A stretch of 51,498 bases of DNA from NCBI GenBank assembly GCA_028873795.1, contig JAPPNP010000039.1, positions 1 through 51,498 of the forward strand. The letters are read 5' to 3'. Source of the DNA: Chloroflexota bacterium. GTDB lineage: Bacteria; Chloroflexota; UBA11872. The notes beneath the pieces were generated by a model. That model searched no databases and was not told where the DNA came from. It saw only the letters and a list, made by a program, of their open reading frames with translations. Shown one piece after another: positions 8,848 to 20,634 of the stretch (its first letter is position 1; every line of letters starts with the position of its first letter). The position numbers and the translations under genes are program-made.

Positions 8848-8960
8848 CCCGAGCCATCTGCTAACCTCTCGCTCCGCCGTCTCGGGCACGCCGCAGAAAC
8901 GGCCGACGCAGACGTTGGGTGCGGTCTAGCTTGACCGTCCTGGCGGTCTCAGCGACTCAC

Positions 8961-10718
8961 ATGGAAGCCTCAGCACTCAGCACTGCAACGACCGTCCGCC
9001 GTTTGGCTGCCTATTTGCGGCCGCACTGGCGGGCACAGGTTGGCGCCATCGTCGCCTCATTGCTCGTGGTGGCCGCGGGGATTCCCGTCCCGTTGCTGAC
9101 CAAGGCGCTCGTCGACGACGTCGCGACCGACGGCAGGCTGGACTTGCTGCCGCTGGTGCTGGCCGCAATCGGCATCTTGGCGGTCTTGACAGCCGCCCTG
9201 TCGATTCTGAGTAGCTATCTCTTTACCCGCGCCGGCGCCCGCGCCGTCAACGTGCTGCGGGCGCACCTCATGCGGCACCTGTTTCGTCTGCCGCTGACGT
9301 ATTTCCGGCGGCACCGTCGGGGCGAGGTCGTTACCCATTTCACCTCCGACGCCGAGGCGGTCGCGACCGCATACCACAAGTCATACGGTCAGGGCGCCGC
9401 GTCGGCCGTACAGCTTGTGGTGGTGGTCGTGGTCATCGCCGTCTTTGACTGGCGGTTCGGAATCGCTGCGGCGGCGATCGTTCCGGTCTACATGCTCATA
9501 CCCTGGATGAACCGGCGGCATCAGGCCCGCGCGAGCCGGCGTATGCAGGACGCGACCGGTCACCTCGGCGGACTGTCGACGGAGCTCGTCACCGGCACGC
9601 GGGACCTCCGGGCGTTCAACGCGGAAGCTTGGTCTCTGCAGCGCCTGCGCCGATCCCTGCGCGAGGTGTTGCGCGCCGGAATCTATCAGGGGACCGTGAC
9701 CGGTTGGTCCTACGCACTCAATGCCGTCCTCTGGTTGATTCACGCGGGGATCTTCGCCGTGTTGGCTGAGGGCATCTTTCAGGGCACGGTCACCATCGGC
9801 TTCGCGCTCGCCATGGTTGGCTACTTTGCGTGGTTGGACATGTCGGTGTTTCCACTTACGGCCGCCTACGTTGAACTACAGAACGCTGTGGGCGCGGCCG
9901 GGCGGTTGTTTCGCTTCATTGATACCTCGGGTGAGCCGGCCACGGCTCCAGGCTCATCGGAGCTCTCCGTGCCGCGTGGTGAGGTTGAATTTCGAGACGT
10001 CGGCGTGGCCTTCGACTCTGGCCCGAATGTGCTCAAGGACGTGTCCTTCAAGGCGCGCGCCGGTGAGGTGACGGCTCTCGTCGGGCCGACGGGCGCCGGA
10101 AAGTCCACGGCCATACATGCGCTGTTGGGCTTCGTGCGGCCCCAGGAAGGCTCCATCACCATTGACGGGCGTGACATCTCGGAAGTCGGCCCAACGCAGG
10201 TGCGGCGCCATGTGGGCGTCGTGTTCCAGGACCCCGCACTCTTCACGGGCTCGATCGGCGAGAACATCAGCTTCGGCCGCGGGGACATCGATTCCGCGCG
10301 CGTTGAGGCAGCCGCACGTGTCGCCCACGCTGCGGAATTCATCGAGGAGTTGCCGAGTCGCTTCGAGACCATCCTCGGCGAACGCGGGCTTGGCTTGTCG
10401 GGCGGCCAGGCGCAACGGATCGCCATCGCGCGCGCCATCGCGCCCGATCCCAGAATCCTGGTCCTTGACGAGGCGACCTCGTCGCTCGACGCCGAGGCTG
10501 AACGCGGAGTGATGGCCGCGATGTCTGCGGGGATGAGCGGGCGGACCACAATCGTGATCGCCCATCGGCTGGCTACCGTCCGTCAGGCAGACGCCATCGT
10601 CGTGCTCGACGCTGGTGGAGTTCTTGACCGCGGTCGACATGACGAGCTCTATCGACGCTGTGGCCTGTATCGCAACCTGTGCGATCTGCAGATGGAGCAG
10701 ACGGCGGACGTGCCATGA
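8961..10718 (+). CDS. ABC exporter half-transporter A' (fused TMD-NBD)
   Basis: 585 residues from ATG 8961 (MEASALST); GTG 8919 would add 14 residues. I prefer the ATG because the distance to the shared 'RRLAAYLRPHWR' block then matches half-transporter A. Walker A is GPTGAGKST (about 375), signature LSGGQAQR (about 480), Walker B 'LVLDEATSSLD', H-loop 'AHRLATV'. The tail 'LYRNLCDLQM' matches A ('LYRELCDLQM'). Its stop overlaps the next start as ATGA, exactly as in the first pair. No clear Shine-Dalgarno is seen before either start, so the 113-base gap may hold a promoter or the gene may be reached by read-through. Confidence 0.92.
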   Translation: MEASALSTATTVRRLAAYLRPHWRAQVGAIVASLLVVAAGIPVPLLTKALVDDVATDGRLDLLPLVLAAIGILAVLTAALSILSSYLFTRAGARAVNVLRAHLMRHLFRLPLTYFRRHRRGEVVTHFTSDAEAVATAYHKSYGQGAASAVQLVVVVVVIAVFDWRFGIAAAAIVPVYMLIPWMNRRHQARASRRMQDATGHLGGLSTELVTGTRDLRAFNAEAWSLQRLRRSLREVLRAGIYQGTVTGWSYALNAVLWLIHAGIFAVLAEGIFQGTVTIGFALAMVGYFAWLDMSVFPLTAAYVELQNAVGAAGRLFRFIDTSGEPATAPGSSELSVPRGEVEFRDVGVAFDSGPNVLKDVSFKARAGEVTALVGPTGAGKSTAIHALLGFVRPQEGSITIDGRDISEVGPTQVRRHVGVVFQDPALFTGSIGENISFGRGDIDSARVEAAARVAHAAEFIEELPSRFETILGERGLGLSGGQAQRIAIARAIAPDPRILVLDEATSSLDAEAERGVMAAMSAGMSGRTTIVIAHRLATVRQADAIVVLDAGGVLDRGRHDELYRRCGLYRNLCDLQMEQTADVP

Positions 10719-14070: not shown

Positions 14071-14636
14071 CCGTCTACAAGCCGCGCGCCGCTAGTGCGC
14101 GGCGGTTTCTACGCGCCCGATCGCTCCGCCAGCAGTTCGAGCGCACGATCGGCGATGGTGGCGACGATTTCGGACGGGGCGGTTGAACCCAGACTGCTCG
14201 ATGAATCTGACTTTCGACGTTACTGCGCTTGCCGATGGTGTCCCCTTTTCGAGTAGCCTGCTTGAGGCCGAATGACTCCCAGGCACCGAAGGCCGACTGA
14301 TGTCCCCGGAGAAAAGGATCGTTCTACGCCCGCGGTGTCGCGACACGCGCTCGACAGCGACTATGGTTGCCGCGTCTGGCTCAGGTCAGGCCGCCGGTGC
14401 CTGCAAGATCGGCTCGCAATTGGGGCGTGATACCGTGGCCTGACGCGCAATTCCACCTTTGGCAAGGATTTGGCTACGTGGGGAATCCGCGTCGGTGGGT
14501 GAGCGAGGCAAGGAAGATGACTGCTCACGTTGAAATCTACAGATTCGCTGCACCATCACTATGGCCGCAAACGGAGCCAGTCCTTGCCGGATCGAGTTTC
14601 CGACTCGCAACTATCGACTAAGCGATCTGGGTACTG
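14071..14636. other. Gene-poor left flank of the low-GC island
   Basis: 566 bases with no credible intact gene. The first part carries the relic of a creatininase C-terminus (14109-14171). From about 14190 the base composition drifts toward that of the island. A short open frame at 14367-14621 has no recognisable features. The promoter of the three-gene cassette probably lies in the last 200 bases. Confidence 0.5.
14109..14171 (-). pseudogene. Relic: C-terminal end of a creatininase-family gene
   Basis: On the minus strand, 20 codons read EIVATIADRALELLAERSGA and then TAG. The intact creatininase at 19128-19817 ends with EIVATIADRALKLLGQES. The match begins abruptly at the glutamate, and nothing upstream of it on this strand resembles the rest of that enzyme. 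At DNA level 18 bases (14155-14172) are identical to 19183-19200 in the same orientation. It is therefore a truncated paralogue or duplication scar at the left edge of the island. Confidence 0.75.
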
Positions 14637-15599
14637 ATGCCAAGTTACTCTGGAGATACGCTTGACGATGTGATGAAAACATCCATTACAGACATTATCT
14701 CTCATGGTAGCGAAATCCACCCGACGAGAGGTCGCGCCAAAGAGTTGGAAGGTGTACTGCTCGAGATCTGCAATCCACTCGCGCGTATCAGCCGGACGGA
14801 GACAAGGGGAAAGCCTTTCAGTTGTATTGGTGAGCTGATTTGGTATTTGTCAGGATCGGATGAGCTCGATTTGATTGCATATTATCTGCCATATTATCAG
14901 CACTATCAATCTACCCATATCGACCAGTCGTACTTCGGGGCATATGGCCCTAGGCTATTCAATTGGCGTGATATAGATCAGTTCAGTAATGCAACAAATA
15001 TTCTGAAATCAAACAAATGGTCTCGGCGAGCAGTCATTCAGATTTTTGATGCAGCGGATGCATCTGGATTGCACAGGGATGTCCCATGTACATGCACACT
15101 GCAATTCCTGGTTCGGGAGAATAGGCTAAATTTGATTGTCAACATGCGGTCGAACGATGCCTTCCTTGGTTTGCCTCACGATGTATTCTGCTTTACCATG
15201 CTTCAAGAGATTATGGCACGAACTTTGGAATGCGAGCTTGGTCAATATAGACACTTTGTTGGAAGCTTGCACCTATACTGTAGGAATGAGTCTAGAGCTC
15301 GGAGTTTTCTTGATGAGGGATGGCAGTCGACTCGGGCAGCAATGCCGCCGATGCCGGCGTGTAATCCTTGGGAATCGATAGCGAATCTTCTTGTCGTAGA
15401 AAGGCAAATCCGGCGTGGTGAGGTGCTTGATCCAGGAGTTCTGTCGAGTCTGGATCCCTATTGGGCTGATTTGGTTCGCCTACTATTGATATTCCGGAAT
15501 TTGAAATGTGCAGAAAAGGAGGGAGTGATTCATCTAAAAGAGGAAATGACTTCCCGGGTCTACGATTCATTTATTGACGACAGAATCGCCCGACTATGA
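14637..15599 (+). CDS. Thymidylate-synthase-fold enzyme, predicted cytosine-nucleotide-type (N-to-D) variant
   Basis: 320 residues with the thymidylate synthase / pyrimidine hydroxymethylase catalytic framework: E66 in 'GELIWYL', arginine pair R130-R131 in 'SRRAVIQIF', nucleophile C151 in 'VPCTCTLQF', R171-S172-x-D174 in 'MRSNDAFLGLP', and H212/Y214 in 'LHLY'. The position after 'LGLP', where ThyA has F-N and the asparagine reads uracil, is H181-D182. Aspartate there is the known hallmark of dCMP and CMP hydroxymethylases (T4 gp42, MilA), so I infer a cytosine nucleotide substrate. The histidine that normally follows the catalytic cysteine is threonine. The C-terminal about 100 residues diverge from ThyA. 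ATG 14637 is the only good start. The stop overlaps the next gene as ATGA. Not the housekeeping ThyA. Confidence 0.8.
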   Translation: MPSYSGDTLDDVMKTSITDIISHGSEIHPTRGRAKELEGVLLEICNPLARISRTETRGKPFSCIGELIWYLSGSDELDLIAYYLPYYQHYQSTHIDQSYFGAYGPRLFNWRDIDQFSNATNILKSNKWSRRAVIQIFDAADASGLHRDVPCTCTLQFLVRENRLNLIVNMRSNDAFLGLPHDVFCFTMLQEIMARTLECELGQYRHFVGSLHLYCRNESRARSFLDEGWQSTRAAMPPMPACNPWESIANLLVVERQIRRGEVLDPGVLSSLDPYWADLVRLLLIFRNLKCAEKEGVIHLKEEMTSRVYDSFIDDRIARL

Positions 15600-16462
15600 A
15601 GGGCGCGTCGTTTTGGAGTGAGCGGCAATATAAGAGTGAAATCGATGATGAAGGTGTGTTAAATGGAATAATCGCCATGTTGATCGATCGGGTGGACCAC
15701 AGCGATGTGGCTGGTAATGCTTGTATATCGTGGAGTAGTCCCGTGCCGTGTTTTGGCGATGCGGAAAGATCCCGCGTAGCAACTTTGGGATTGAATCCTA
15801 GTAATCGGGAGTTCGAGGACGAATTGGGCAATGAGCTCACGGGCCCTGAACGACGCTTTCACACTCTCAGGTCCCTTGGATTGGATTCTTGGCTCGATGC
15901 TGATTCGCGCCATTTCGATCTGATGGTGGAAACCTGTCGAAGATATTTCTCAACTAACCCCTATGATCTGTGGTTTCGCAAGCTAGATCTTGTGCTGGAA
16001 GGGGCAAACGTGTCCTACTACGATCCAGTGCATATGGCCTGTCATTTGGATCTGGTTCCGTTTGCCACGTACAGTAAGTGGTCTGGGTTATCGACTCAAA
16101 TCAGTTCAAGTCTCATAACTGGCTTTGGGGACGTATTGGGGTTGGTGCTACGCGCCTCGACGATTCAGGTACTGATTCTGAACGGGATGTCAGTGATTCG
16201 CGGATTTCAAGAGTTTACCGGTGTTGAGCTTGAAGCCGAAGAGGCTCCTGCCTGGACATTGTCTCGTCGTTCACGGCGCGCTGTGACTGGTATTGCGTAT
16301 ACAGGCCAGGTGGATCGCGTTGGGGGCATCGGTCTCGATCGAGAGGTCAGGGTTTTAGGATTCAATCACAATCTCCAAGGCAGCTTTGGAGTGAGTCGCG
16401 ATACTACTGACGCAATTCGTTCTTGGATTGCCGATGAATGTCGTCACGTGGCATGGTTATAG
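15596..16462 (+). CDS. Uracil-DNA-glycosylase-like fold protein of the cassette
   Basis: 288 residues, low GC, starting within the stop of the thymidylate-synthase-like gene. I do not recognise a named family with certainty. The layout suggests the UDG superfamily: a first-strand motif 'ATLGLNPSNREF' (about 62-73; compare GINPG in MUG), a middle 'HLDLVPFATYSKW' (150-162), a strand 'VLILNG' (about 192-197) and a late 'GFNHNLQGSFGVS' (255-267), placed where UDGs have their HPSP-type loop. The classical catalytic Asp/Asn after the first motif is not clear. A role in handling a modified base or nucleotide is inferred from these motifs and the neighbours. It overlaps the third cassette gene by 25 bases, so the three are likely co-translated. 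Confidence 0.55.
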   Translation: MKGASFWSERQYKSEIDDEGVLNGIIAMLIDRVDHSDVAGNACISWSSPVPCFGDAERSRVATLGLNPSNREFEDELGNELTGPERRFHTLRSLGLDSWLDADSRHFDLMVETCRRYFSTNPYDLWFRKLDLVLEGANVSYYDPVHMACHLDLVPFATYSKWSGLSTQISSSLITGFGDVLGLVLRASTIQVLILNGMSVIRGFQEFTGVELEAEEAPAWTLSRRSRRAVTGIAYTGQVDRVGGIGLDREVRVLGFNHNLQGSFGVSRDTTDAIRSWIADECRHVAWL

Positions 16463-17385
16463 CAACAAGGCGGGACGTGGCTGCACGGTTTTGTGAAAGT
16501 CTTGATGCTTGCGATCCTCAGGTCGTCCGACTCCCGGGGATTCGTGATACAGGTGTGAGGGAAAGCCTGGGTATGCAGCTTGCTGAAAGCGTGCGGAGAG
16601 TACAGTATGTCGAGGTCATCGCAGAGCGCGATATAAGTTCGCGTCGATGTGACCCAGATGATGTGATGTTTGATCCGGTAAGGGCGGCGATAGTATGTCG
16701 ACGTCAGGGCATGTTCGACGAGGCATGTTGGTTGGTGTTCTTGTTTGTCCACTTTGGGAGGCACGTACGTTGGGGCTGGTCGTATGCGCGGGCCGTGTAT
16801 GGACGTTGTGGAGATGGAAGACGGTGGGATTGGCAGTCAACGAGTGCCGACCCGGCAGCTTTCCGCGCGTGGCTCGGGGCGAACCAAGACTCGGTGCGGA
16901 CGTACAATGGCGGAGGAGGGTTTGGAAATCATCGAAAATACGAGAGCCTTGACGCGCACTCGAACAGGGGGACGGGAGCAGCGGTTGAGACTTATGTGCA
17001 GTGGGTAGTGCGATGGCATGGTCATAGAGCACTGTTTCAGCAGGCAGTAGATTCGGCTGGCGGTGACAAAGGTGTGGCATTCGATTCTCTCTATCAGAGT
17101 ATGGATGGAGTTATTAGCTTTGGGCGGATGGCTAAGTTTGACTACCTTTGCATGCTGGGAAAGCTACATCTTGCTTGTGTCGAGCCTGCATCGCCCTATA
17201 TTCAATCTTCAACGGGGCCGCTGTATGGTGCTCGGCTGCTGTTTGGTTCAGAGTTGAGTCCTGGACAGTTGAACGAGATGACCGCGAGGCTCGCGACACA
17301 CTTGGGAGTCGGAATGCAAGTTCTGGAGGATGCGCTGTGCAACTGGCAAAAGAGCCCTGAGTGCTTCACTCCGTTTCGGGGATAG
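16438..17385 (+). CDS. Alpha-glutamyl/putrescinyl thymine pyrophosphorylase-like protein (clade 3 type)
   Basis: 315 residues. Conserved-looking blocks are 'LFVHFGRHVRWGW' (102-114), 'GFGNHRKYESLD' (161-172), 'KFDYLCMLGKL' (233-243) and 'GPLYGARLLFG' (260-270). I recall these from the bacterial protein group annotated as alpha-glutamyl/putrescinyl thymine pyrophosphorylase clade 3, related to phage enzymes that activate 5-hydroxymethyl pyrimidines in DNA for hypermodification. Family assignment is from memory and needs a profile search. ATG 16438 overlaps the previous gene by 25 bases; ATG 16453 (overlap 10) is also possible. It ends eight bases before the convergent antitoxin gene. With a hydroxymethylase-like and a UDG-like partner it could act on a hydroxymethylated base or nucleotide. 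Confidence 0.65.
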   Translation: MSSRGMVIATRRDVAARFCESLDACDPQVVRLPGIRDTGVRESLGMQLAESVRRVQYVEVIAERDISSRRCDPDDVMFDPVRAAIVCRRQGMFDEACWLVFLFVHFGRHVRWGWSYARAVYGRCGDGRRWDWQSTSADPAAFRAWLGANQDSVRTYNGGGGFGNHRKYESLDAHSNRGTGAAVETYVQWVVRWHGHRALFQQAVDSAGGDKGVAFDSLYQSMDGVISFGRMAKFDYLCMLGKLHLACVEPASPYIQSSTGPLYGARLLFGSELSPGQLNEMTARLATHLGVGMQVLEDALCNWQKSPECFTPFRG

Positions 17386-17393
17386 TCGACAAT

Positions 17394-18503
17394 TCAATCC
17401 TGCCATTGAAAGCGTCGTTTGAGGTTGTTCATGCGATGGTATCCGAGGCGGCCAGCATGTTGAAGCTGTCCGACTACAATTCCCGGCGAGATTCCGGCAT
17501 CGTGGGCGAGCCGGATGATCGAACGTGGCGTCAGGGGGATTGTTGAGAGGTCTCTCTGAAAGCTGTCGGGAATCAGAACGCGAGCCGCAAACTCATTCGC
17601 AGAGTCCTCGTTGGTCGACGGAGATTGCTCCAGCCCTTCGAGAATCCAATCGCCGCCCGAGTCTGGAGTGTCTGAAGTTGATGGGGGTGATTGATGCAGC
17701 ACCAAGTGTGCGGCTTCATGAAAGAATGTAAACCAGAAGTGGTCGTCGGAAAGGTACCGAAAGCTGAGTTGCAATATGGCCTTGCGCGGAGAGATGAATC
17801 TAGTGGCGCCGCTCGCACGACATCCGCTAGGGCATCGGACCACTACTACTGCGACCCCATTCGCCGCACAAATATCAACTAGCCTCGGAAGGAATCGTGC
17901 CGGGTCCTTCTGCCTAGTGAGGTTTCGAATCTCACGGAGCGAGCTCTGGAAGCCACGTGGATTCCAAGACGCGCAGGGGATTTCTTTTGCTTCGATTTCC
18001 CCTTGGCGGAGCCATGCAGCAACAGATGCAGGTCGTGAGTCAATGCTTGGAGAAGTGCGAAAGGCAGACATTGCCTGAGAACCGTGATAGTAGTTATTCC
18101 ATTGTGAGAGACTTGTCATTCCAAAGAATCTTAGACAAGTGGATAGTTCATCAGATGGGGATGGGGGAGGAGTGATCCATCCGAACCTGACCATATCGCT
18201 GAGAGGCAGTTCCCGAATCCAATCTACACCGGAACCTTCGGCCAACCGCTTAGTATCTTGACGATACTGAATGTCGCGGGACATCCAAAAGCTCACTGAA
18301 GCTCCGAGCACCGCTGTGATCCGTCGTGCGAGGCTAATCGTGATTGTGGTGCGCCCGTTGAGTAAGTCGTCGGTGTCTGACGGGGAAAGGCACGTGAGAT
18401 TTTCAAAATCCGCCCTTGAGATCTGACGCTCATTGAGAATATCCAATATGGTGTCGCCAGGTGATGATGCCCAATTCGGCCGGAATGGTTGAATGTTACT
18501 CAC
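17394..18503 (-). CDS. higA: HigA-family antitoxin with XRE helix-turn-helix and ImmA/IrrE zinc protease domain
   Basis: 369 residues. The N-terminus is a HigA-type helix-turn-helix (about 10-80: 'PGDTILDILNERQISRADF', 'SLARRITAVLGASVSFW'), which would bind the toxin-antitoxin promoter. The C-terminal half is an ImmA/IrrE metallopeptidase domain with HEAAH (262-266) and a downstream E304 in 'NEFAARVLIP'. The tail 'ISPGIVVGQLQHAGRLGY' is typical of this two-domain antitoxin class. The start is GTG 18503 with AGGAG seven bases upstream. It overlaps the end of the toxin gene by eight bases. Toxin-first order is characteristic of hig systems. Lower GC than the genome. It lies tail to tail with the base-modification-like cassette, perhaps stabilising it. 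Confidence 0.88.
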   Translation of the reverse strand: MSNIQPFRPNWASSPGDTILDILNERQISRADFENLTCLSPSDTDDLLNGRTTITISLARRITAVLGASVSFWMSRDIQYRQDTKRLAEGSGVDWIRELPLSDMVRFGWITPPPSPSDELSTCLRFFGMTSLSQWNNYYHGSQAMSAFRTSPSIDSRPASVAAWLRQGEIEAKEIPCASWNPRGFQSSLREIRNLTRQKDPARFLPRLVDICAANGVAVVVVRCPSGCRASGATRFISPRKAILQLSFRYLSDDHFWFTFFHEAAHLVLHQSPPSTSDTPDSGGDWILEGLEQSPSTNEDSANEFAARVLIPDSFQRDLSTIPLTPRSIIRLAHDAGISPGIVVGQLQHAGRLGYHRMNNLKRRFQWQD

Positions 18504-18825
18504 ATACGACTCCTAATTGAATCAGCTGAAGTCGGATAACTTGTTGCCAGTCTACCGTGCCTTGCGGTGTAAGAGGATTCTGGGGATGATTTGGCGCGAG
18601 GAGAAGTTGATGACAGTTTGTTAGATCGATTACAAGAAATTCAATTTCGTCGCCAGCTACGATTCGAGGATTGCCAACTAACAGGTCATCGATTCCTGAT
18701 GCAGCCCGAATGTCTGCCAATCGGTGTCGCAATGTCCTAGCCACAGGTGGTGGTAGGTCCCTCGCAGCGTGTTCGGGGATTTCGCATAGACAGCGGAGAT
18801 ACTTTGAGGCGAAGGCAAGTTCCAT
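18496..18825 (-). CDS. higB: HigB/RelE-type toxin (killer protein family)
   Basis: 109 residues starting 'MELAFASKYLRCLCE', with 'RTLRHRLADIRAA', 'VGNPR' and the ending 'DWQQVIRLQLIQLGV', the pattern of the RelE/ParE-superfamily toxins paired with ImmA-containing HigA antitoxins. Members cut mRNA on the ribosome or otherwise block translation. The usual basic catalytic residues are hard to place and 'GDEIEF' replaces a more basic strand, so activity may be reduced. It is the first gene of the pair, and the antitoxin start overlaps its stop. The promoter is presumably within 18826-18950. Confidence 0.82.
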   Translation of the reverse strand: MELAFASKYLRCLCEIPEHAARDLPPPVARTLRHRLADIRAASGIDDLLVGNPRIVAGDEIEFLVIDLTNCHQLLLAPNHPQNPLTPQGTVDWQQVIRLQLIQLGVVCE

Positions 18826-19127: not shown

Positions 19128-19817
19128 TTACGGGTCCGTTCGTTGTGATTCTTGGCCGAGCAGCTTGAGCGCGCGGTCTGCAATGGTGGCGACGATTTCG
19201 TCGAACGCCGCCGCGCCCATCTCGCGTGAGGCCGTCTCAACCGGATTCAATCCGAGAATGCCCTGCGCCTCCAGGTCCAGATCGGACCGGACCTTGGTCA
19301 GGTCGACGAGGTCCGGGTCCACGTGACAGAGGACGCTGGTTTCCCATTTCGCCGCGTGGTCGAAGGGATACTCCTCGTCGTCGATTGCCGCATTGTCGGG
19401 CAGGATCCAGAGCGAGATTCCCGCGGCGTCGGCGGCCGGGCGCGCGCCGCGTTCCAGCGCGGCCAGGTGATCGGGGTTCCCGTGGCCCGAGATGATCACC
19501 ACCACGGCGAAGCCCTCCTCCGCCAGCTGCGCCACGTATTCGTGCGCCAAGGATTCGAGCGTGGCGGCCGAAATCTCGATTGTGTGACCGAAGCCGGCTT
19601 GAGGTTTCATCGTCCCGTGTCCGCAATACAGCGTCGGCAGCGAGATGGCGCCGATGCGGTCGGCCACGGCGTCGGCGAAGGCGGCGGCCTTCAATCCGTC
19701 GAGGCCGATTGCCGCGTGATAGCCGTGCCACTCCAGGGCGCCCCACGGGAGCACCGCCACGGGCACTTTGGCGCGAATGGCCTCGATTTCGTCCGGTCGC
19801 AAGCGTTCGTATTTCAT
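19128..19817 (-). CDS. Creatininase family amidohydrolase
   Basis: 229 residues of the creatininase/MftE/FAPy-deformylase superfamily, which open cyclic amides or hydrolyse small amides with two metal ions. The N-terminal block 'PWGALEWHGYHAAIGLD' supplies E29, H31, H34 and D40; 'SGHGNPDHL' (H112) and 'AKWETS' complete the family pattern. ATG 19817 is supported by GGAGG eight bases upstream; the frame continues upstream, but only into the divergent gene's leader. It is divergent from the RraA-like gene, and the two probably share regulation. Its 3' end is the sequence also found as a relic at 14109, so the low-GC island sits directly at its tail. Substrate unknown: creatinine-like cyclic amides or other amides. 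Confidence 0.87.
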   Translation of the reverse strand: MKYERLRPDEIEAIRAKVPVAVLPWGALEWHGYHAAIGLDGLKAAAFADAVADRIGAISLPTLYCGHGTMKPQAGFGHTIEISAATLESLAHEYVAQLAEEGFAVVVIISGHGNPDHLAALERGARPAADAAGISLWILPDNAAIDDEEYPFDHAAKWETSVLCHVDPDLVDLTKVRSDLDLEAQGILGLNPVETASREMGAAAFDEIVATIADRALKLLGQESQRTDP

Positions 19818-19959
19818 GGTGCGGCCTCCGGCTCCGGCGGCGGGCCGGGAGCGTATCAGAACTACGGCATGGAACTGCCAAGCGCCGTACTTGCGCGCCG
19901 CCGCCGCCGTGCGTAGGTTCGGGGATTCACCGCACCCGCACCACGATTCGAGCGAAGCC
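19818..19959. promoter_or_regulatory. Divergent promoter region for creatininase and RraA-like genes
   Basis: A 142-base gap separates two start codons pointing away from each other, so both promoters must be inside or reach into it. It contains a GC-rich run (CGGCGGCGGGCCGGG) and no obvious consensus box; no regulator gene is adjacent. Confidence 0.45.
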
Positions 19960-20634
19960 ATGACCGAGCTGGATCCGGCGATCCTCGACGGCCTGCTGGA
20001 GTACGACACCCCGACCATCTGCAACGCCATCGAAGAGATGGAGGTGCGCGACCCGGTCGACGGCTACATGGGCTGGGACGTTCGCTGCATGTACCCGGAC
20101 CTTGGCCGCATGGTGGGCTATGCCGTCACGGCGACGGGCCGCAGCACCGTGCCCGGATCGCCGCAGAAAGGCGACGGATTTCCCCAGTGGTTCGAGCTGG
20201 TCGAGAAGTCTCCCAAGCCGGCGGTGCTCGTGTTGAAGGACGTGGGCCCCGACCGCTACCGTTCCGCCCATTGCGGCGACGTGATGGTCACGATTTCGCT
20301 GGCCTTGGGCGCCATTGGGCTGGTGACCGACGGCGGAGTGCGCGACTTCGAGACCGTGCATGAGCTCGGCTTTCGCTACTTCGCCTCGGGCCTGGTGGCC
20401 GCGCATGGCACGCCCGAAATCGTGCAGGCCGGGCTGGACGTCACCATCAGCGGCACACTCGTGCGCACCGGCGACATCATCCACGCCGACGTCAACGGGG
20501 TCGCCGTGCTGCCGCCGGAGCATTGCGCCGAAATCCTGGAGCGTTGTCCCGGTGTGCTCGAAATCGAGGAGCGTCGTCGCGACCTGGCGAACTCCCCCGG
20601 ATTCAAGGCCGCGGACCTGCGGAATATGCCCTAG
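19960..20634 (+). CDS. RraA-like / HMG aldolase family protein
   Basis: 224 residues of the RraA fold, which includes 4-hydroxy-4-methyl-2-oxoglutarate aldolase and oxaloacetate decarboxylase as well as the RNase E inhibitor RraA. The aldolase signature 'GLVTDGGVRDFETV' carries D124, R128 and D129, the divalent-metal and pyruvate site; 'CGDVMV' (105-110) and 'ISGTLVRTGDIIHAD' follow the family. Catabolic members use these residues, so an aldolase or decarboxylase role is more likely than RNase E control. ATG 19960 is chosen because the open upstream frame would cover the divergent promoter. Often found beside dehydrogenases and transporters for sugar acids, as here. Confidence 0.88.
   Translation: MTELDPAILDGLLEYDTPTICNAIEEMEVRDPVDGYMGWDVRCMYPDLGRMVGYAVTATGRSTVPGSPQKGDGFPQWFELVEKSPKPAVLVLKDVGPDRYRSAHCGDVMVTISLALGAIGLVTDGGVRDFETVHELGFRYFASGLVAAHGTPEIVQAGLDVTISGTLVRTGDIIHADVNGVAVLPPEHCAEILERCPGVLEIEERRRDLANSPGFKAADLRNMP

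Follow-up and report, generated by a model that had tools for sequence, protein, structure and literature searches.

What do three overlapping, low-GC genes in the genome of a Chloroflexota bacterium (lineage UBA11872) do together, and do they make up a complete system? The genes lie on contig JAPPNP010000039.1 (GenBank assembly GCA_028873795.1), the 51,498 nucleotides of which were analysed as a whole (hereafter the window). An earlier sequence-only reading had described them as a thymidylate synthase (TS)-like, a uracil-DNA glycosylase (UDG)-like and an aGPT-pyrophosphorylase-like gene (hereafter genes 1, 2 and 3) that might jointly make, install, sense or remove a modified pyrimidine. Our results reveal that the trio belongs to a five-gene cassette with a conserved core of four genes (i.e. 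gene 1, gene 3 and a convergent pair encoding an XRE-M78 and a HigB-like protein), in which the UDG-like gene is optional. There is about an even chance that this cassette is a self-contained mobile conflict (anti-phage) system, made up of a cytosine-modification arm and a PD-lambda-2-like toxin arm.

A mobile cassette with a four-gene core

Genes 1 (14637–15599), 2 (15596–16462) and 3 (16438–17385) are all on the + strand and overlap successively by 4 bases (ATGA, 15596–15599) and 25 bases (16438–16462). On the − strand, facing the trio tail to tail, are a gene for an XRE/HigA-type HTH domain fused to an M78 (ImmA/IrrE) zinc peptidase (17394–18503) and, directly upstream of it, a gene for a small HigB-like protein (18496–18825). 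The five genes form two convergent operons. GC content is 0.48–0.55 over 14–19 kb and 0.64–0.71 in the rest of the window. Promoter and terminator scans never gave a signal above that of shuffled sequences, and no operator common to both operons was found, with a score of at least 14 in 1 of 76 loci; the mean operator score was 9.24 against 8.84 for mismatched pairs (rank test p 0.005), a small difference that is possibly an effect of base composition.

The insert, of ∼5.03 kb, carries these five genes and nothing else; it contains no integrase and is bracketed by 42-bp direct repeats (14131–14172 and 19159–19200) that are 86% identical. The left repeat is the pre-insertion 3′ end of a creatininase-family gene, and the right repeat now provides the 3′ end of this gene (19128–20030, − strand). 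Gene 3 is absent from five congeners, all five of which have both island flanks, and the insertion site is empty in four sister species. One of these empty sites (G001) matches the left flank at 99.3% identity as far as 14172 and then passes straight into what, in the window, comes after the right repeat. The fifth sister species (G003) has a different island at the same site and repeat (L099, 3588–7817), with genes for a DndB-like protein, an N6/N4 DNA methyltransferase and a 432-aa protein of no assigned family. Within the phylum, aGPT3 is carried by 4 of 400 genomes (1%). The five genes move horizontally as one unit. The gene overlaps, the low GC content, the shared operon and the status of island passenger, all read initially from the sequence, are thus borne out.

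We then scanned 84,980 genomes with gene 3 alone and kept the best 80 of 139 loci, which together with the window give 81 loci; the more distant aGPT3 proteins beyond these best 80 may have other contexts. Profile hidden Markov models detected the TS-like gene in 79 of the 81 loci, the XRE-M78 gene in 80, the HigB-like gene in 79 and the UDG-like gene in 29. Because contig ends cut three loci (L078, L063 and L079), the four-gene core has a single genuine gap, the TS-like gene of L053, and every locus not cut in this way retains the convergent XRE-M78/HigB-like pair. Of the 80 XRE-M78 genes, 79 face gene 3 from the opposite strand, and the median distance to the gene 3 stop codon is 2 bp. The association of TS-like and aGPT3 genes, in loci drawn by gene 3 alone, is an arrangement beyond chance. 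The neighbourhood survey, which bore on whether the genes rarely co-occur and on whether genes 2 and 3 belong to unrelated families, left the core of the sequence-only reading standing. The trio itself proved to be a less apt unit: its TS–aGPT3 part holds, while the UDG-like gene is optional, the convergent pair had been left out and the interval was too short.

Hosts of the cassette include Chloroflexota, Acidobacteriota, Pseudomonadota, Actinomycetota, Bacteroidota, Planctomycetota, Verrucomicrobiota and Myxococcota. The layout is identical in 26 viral-contig loci of IMG/VR wherever the contig is long enough, and no aGPT3 relative was found in the phage reference collection at E < 1e-5. Gene 3 also occurs on eight plasmid records, and in all four of these plasmids whose annotation was read (from Roseomonas, Pantoea, Leptospira and Arthrobacter) TS and gene 3 face a convergent ImmA/IrrE gene. 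The Pantoea agglomerans copy (L139, NZ_CP134741.1), with no HigB-like gene annotated, belongs to a P1-like phage-plasmid and is flanked by a restriction endonuclease gene on one side and ddrA/lysis/tail genes on the other. In the Leptospira plasmid (L140, 6980–7913) the annotation splits gene 3 into two neighbouring pieces, and this copy may be broken.

Individual loci deviate in other ways. An Abi_C protein gene is inserted within the cassette of L028 (4112–4915), and L016 contains an extra cassette gene (8947–10019) with weak, below-cut-off similarity to nucleoside 2-deoxyribosyltransferases. A distant aGPT3 homologue without the cassette (L135, 6493–7431; genome G314) is, by eye, near cytosine-C5 methyltransferase-like and Vsr-like genes.

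Predicted activities of the trio

Gene 1 matches the Thymidylat_synt family (PF00303, 1.4e-24), and its best solved relatives are the CMP 5-hydroxymethylases MilA (7.4e-41). Cytosine is selected in MilA (Asp186) and in T4 dCMP hydroxymethylase (Asp179) by an Asp that contacts and protonates the base, and deoxyribose is selected by a Ser and an Arg, at which positions MilA has Ala176 and Lys133 (PMC5175136, PMC6400193). The diagnostic residues of gene 1 in the window are Cys151, Glu66, Asp182, Ser172, Arg130 and Asp148. Among its homologues, C151, S172, D182, H212 and Y214 are invariant (79/79), as is E66 (77/77); position 130 is Arg in 66 and Lys in 13 of the 79, and position 148 is Asp or Glu in 71. 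Phage PaMx11, the genome of which encodes a uracil-type pathway, served as a control: its TS-like protein has Asn at the position of Asp182 and agrees with gene 1 at the other diagnostic residues. Gene 1 is thus predicted to encode a dCMP 5-hydroxymethylase, and the invariance of Asp182 and Ser172 suggests that the base concerned is cytosine, not thymine. Three other assignments were rejected: (i) a housekeeping, dTMP-forming TS, because the catalytic Cys151 is kept but Asp182 replaces the dUMP-selecting Asn, and the host has ThyX for dTMP (gene 1 is its sole PF00303 protein); (ii) a phage-like thymine/uracil chemistry, because of the Asp in this Asp/Asn column and the absence of a 5-hmdU DNA kinase (see below); and (iii) a MilA-type CMP pathway, because Ala176 and Lys133 are not kept and their places are taken by the Ser172 and, mostly, the Arg noted above.

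Gene 3 matches both aGPT-Pplase3 (PF18746; 3.9e-97, 325 bits, cut-off 25) and ADDT (PF18724; 1.1e-63, 216 bits, cut-off 26.2). Its AlphaFold2 model (pLDDT 94) is an all-helical, HhH glycosylase-type fold, the best VIA-align match of which is the 5-PmdU glycinyltransferase of PaMx11 (8z2n; Z 10.7 over 220 residues), followed by a queuosine-salvage enzyme (Z 9.4) and 8-oxoguanine glycosylases (Z ≤ 9.3); the differences in Z are small. Foldseek alone gave no match at E < 0.001 and searches of PDB sequences with the aGPT3 profile gave no useful match, and the family placement draws on VIA-align, Pfam and profile comparison. PaMx11 gp46 itself matches PF18724 (1.6e-27). An hhalign comparison of the aGPT3 profile with an alignment of 11 phage members (E 1.8e-4, probability 48%) covers the C-terminal half, and the comparison with the single PaMx11 protein was uninformative. 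The C-terminal motif E-D-A-L-C-N-W, which is E297-D-A-L-C301-N-W-Q-K305 in the window, aligns with phage E-T-[VI]-L-C-K-W; the E and C are invariant on both sides, E297 and C301 occurring in all 81 gene 3 proteins and aligning with phage E243 and C247. Judged by profile, model fold and this E-x3-C motif, gene 3 is best placed in the aGPT-Pplase3/AADT/ADDT family.

In phages, amino-acid:DNA transferases act on a substrate that a 5-hmdU DNA kinase provides, and the search that detects this kinase in PaMx11 found none (PF18723) in the island, in the window genome (96.6% complete) or in 17 of 18 other carriers. In the absence of this kinase, the phage thymine pathway is not simply transferable to the cassette. 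For unphosphorylated 5-hydroxymethylcytosine, direct substitution has a precedent with C5-methyltransferases. The sequence-only reading had pointed to the role of the aGPT-Pplase family in phage thymine hypermodification; the missing kinase, together with Asp182 in place of Asn, speaks against that chemistry here, while a modified pyrimidine serving conflict remains the likeliest theme, with the residues pointing to cytosine (dCMP) and not to thymine or uracil. In Paraburkholderia xenovorans LB400 a 5-hmdU DNA kinase is encoded elsewhere in a cassette-bearing genome (L137, 6794–7885), with downstream genes that by eye resemble the Gabija pair.

Gene 2 has no match in Pfam, PHROG, NCBIfam or PADLOC. 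Its AlphaFold2 model (pLDDT 91) has a UDG fold, with a closer match to family-4 UDG (Z 14.7, 3.2 Å over 189 residues) than to human TDG (Z 11.1), and PDB sequence searches with the UDG-like profile gave no useful match. The sequence G65-L-N67-P68-S69, the GLNP of which we take to be the counterpart of motif 1 of MUG/TDG, and N257-H258-N259...S263, presumably the motif-2 loop, are largely kept among 29 homologues: G65, N67 and P68 are invariant, L66 varies, and NHNxxxS is kept with N257 in 28. The Pfam UDG model matches none of the 29. The model suggests that gene 2 represents a clade of the UDG superfamily without a Pfam model, for which base excision is a predicted activity. The three family labels given from the sequence alone therefore stand, through PF00303 for gene 1, the UDG-fold model for gene 2 and PF18746/PF18724 for gene 3. 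The UDG-like gene is accessory because its presence or absence flips 12 times (gains or losses) on the gene 3 tree, and an essential place for it in the trio is ruled out by these changes and by its occurrence in only 29 of 81 loci. Five loci (L018, L027, L034, L036 and L081) have small genes between those for TS and the UDG-like protein, in L018 immediately ahead of the latter; these small genes encode DUF4031 in all four scanned loci, three of which also have a divergent HTH gene, and the open reading frames of L027 are same-sized.

The convergent pair and the defence-like context of the cassette

The XRE-M78 protein matches PF06114 (1.3e-08) and HigA structures (1e-05), and the PADLOC model PD-Lambda-2_B covers its residues 14–351 (1.9e-24). 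All 79 covered homologues retain the M78 zinc ligands H262, E263 and H266 (H262-E263-x-x-H266) and E299. The protein upstream has no PDB or PADLOC match; it is a candidate PD-lambda-2 A component by position and size, and a putative HigB-like protein by position and weak similarity. Plasmid cousins of the pair are annotated as a RelE/ParE toxin or killer suppression protein with HigA. The XRE-M78 protein also scores against capP in PADLOC, and its relatives lie beside a cyclase/E2/TIR set and a multiubiquitin/ThiF set (L143 and L144; pCMU01 and Streptomyces NZ_CP107978.1). Because XRE-M78 relatives are found both in plain toxin–antitoxin pairs and with other conflict gene sets, the module seems able to partner several conflict systems, which suggests a general plug-in switch.

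Direct neighbours of the cassette include GajB, SduA, MzaA, IetA, AbiEii and type I restriction-modification genes, counted without a background control. These neighbours and the alternative DndB-like/methyltransferase cargo at the same site suggest a role in conflict.

DefensePredictor (2026) lists an aGPT-Pplase system among its predicted defences, as a prediction only, and its validated systems include a thymidylate synthase domain and a 5-hydroxymethyluracil (5-hmdU DNA) kinase domain (PMC13092281).

Proposed function and comparison with known systems

From these observations we infer a defensive role for the cassette, and a chemistry, a trigger and an order of steps as follows. The product of gene 1 would supply a cytosine-derived 5-hydroxymethyl group, on which gene 3, as its family and fold suggest, would act most likely in DNA, either replacing it with a larger group or recognizing such a group. 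Gene 2, when present, may be a UDG-type glycosylase that excises an unwanted or unfinished base. The HigB-like/XRE-M78 pair would be a toxin–antitoxin switch akin to PD-lambda-2 A and B, from which growth arrest could be released on phage infection, whether the cue is a modification that is lacking, a perturbed nucleotide pool or single-stranded DNA detected by the M78 peptidase; the modification operon would then stand in for the third component of PD-lambda-2.

Several points weigh against this reading: (i) no 5-hmdU DNA kinase that could activate the gene 3 substrate was found in the window genome or in 17 of 18 other carriers; (ii) the cassette lacks a kinase to raise hmdCMP to the triphosphate; (iii) the two operons share no common operator in the 76-locus scan; (iv) the tentative HigB-like identity of 18496–18825 comes from weak similarity and position; (v) proximity to defence genes was counted without a background; and (vi) the literature searched holds no phage-challenge or chemical data for the cassette.

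The placement of two DNA-glycosylase folds next to a maker of modified nucleotides would also fit poisoning of phage DNA, whereby hydroxymethyl-dCMP or an adduct enters replicating phage DNA, the UDG-like and HhH proteins make abasic sites or breaks, and XRE-M78/HigB holds the system off until infection. The XRE-M78 protein would be regulator-like in this case, consistent with its capP score and its relatives beside other conflict sets on plasmids. However, 52 of 81 loci lack the UDG-like gene, gene 3 is nearest to a transferase and not to a glycosylase, the common operator was not found and the host would need protection, which together make poisoning doubtful. Toxin–antitoxin pairs stabilize mobile DNA, and a HigB/HigA-type module might do so here for a mobile unit that marks host DNA with no effect on phages, i.e. 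a non-defensive addiction cassette or epigenetic mark. This would agree with the occurrence on plasmids and with an island that holds nothing else, but the same two modification genes at ∼80 diverse loci would then be unneeded and the defence-gene neighbourhoods and DndB-like/methyltransferase cargo suggest conflict; we regard it as unlikely.

Two further explanations move away from both phages and addiction. That MilA is the closest solved relative of gene 1, and that the extra protein of L016 weakly resembles nucleoside 2-deoxyribosyltransferases, could point to a small-molecule pathway of the mildiomycin/bacimethrin kind, with gene 1 making hydroxymethyl-dCMP, the UDG-like protein freeing the base and gene 3 adding an amino acid to give a nucleoside toxin or signal. 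This is very unlikely given that the ribose selectors of MilA are not kept, that the island has no export or resistance gene and that the relatives of gene 3 act on DNA. M78/IrrE peptidases function in DNA-damage responses, and a damage-sensing XRE-M78 protein with two glycosylase-fold proteins might form a DNA-repair or stress-tolerance island unrelated to phages; a cytosine-nucleotide hydroxymethylase has no known role in repair, however, and the sporadic distribution in the phylum likewise makes this explanation highly improbable.

If the cassette is indeed an anti-phage system, several phyla carry a mobile system in which phage-style base hypermodification chemistry is aimed at cytosine and coupled to a toxin switch. 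Pfam aGPT-Pplase3 would then gain a function and an unrecognized clade of the UDG superfamily a name, and whether a modified base can serve as a toxin–antitoxin safety signal would become directly testable; the enterobacterial copy in the P1-like phage-plasmid makes laboratory work practical. More tentatively, the cassette could represent a widespread class of bacterial immunity, in which a predicted cytosine hypermodification (by a dCMP hydroxymethylase and a kinase-independent relative of amino-acid:DNA transferases) is hard-wired to a toxin–antitoxin switch, and absent or disturbed modified cytosine, not the cutting of unmodified DNA, triggers arrest. The logic would be that of restriction-modification, except that a growth-arresting toxin replaces the nuclease.

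Compared with known systems, the likeness to the aGPT-Pplase system of DefensePredictor (PMC13092281) lies in the aGPT-Pplase itself, and the legend of the figure, by which alone the two were compared, names HTH and UDG domains; the cassette differs from the validated systems that include a 5-hmdU DNA kinase domain in having no such kinase. The convergent pair resembles PD-lambda-2, in which B is toxic on its own, A relieves the toxicity and defence requires a third gene (PMC9519451), in that a HigB-like gene adjoins a HigA-type Xre-peptidase fusion matched over almost its full length by the B model. By contrast, no PADLOC model matches the HigB-like component, and the cassette has a convergent modification operon instead of the P4-type antitoxin-like third gene (C). 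With phage thymidine hypermodification (PaMx11, M6 and PhiW-14) the cassette shares a TS-fold nucleotide hydroxymethylase and a protein of the amino-acid:DNA-transferase family. It differs in its cytosine-type Asp (Asn in PaMx11), in lacking the 5-hmdU DNA kinase, and in being bacterial, with a toxin–antitoxin pair and an optional UDG-like gene. Gene 1 has the catalytic and cytosine-selecting residues of both MilA and T4 dCMP hydroxymethylase; MilA, however, has a preference for CMP and carries Ala/Lys at the Ser/Arg positions of gene 1, and the T4 enzyme serves to modify the phage's own genome.

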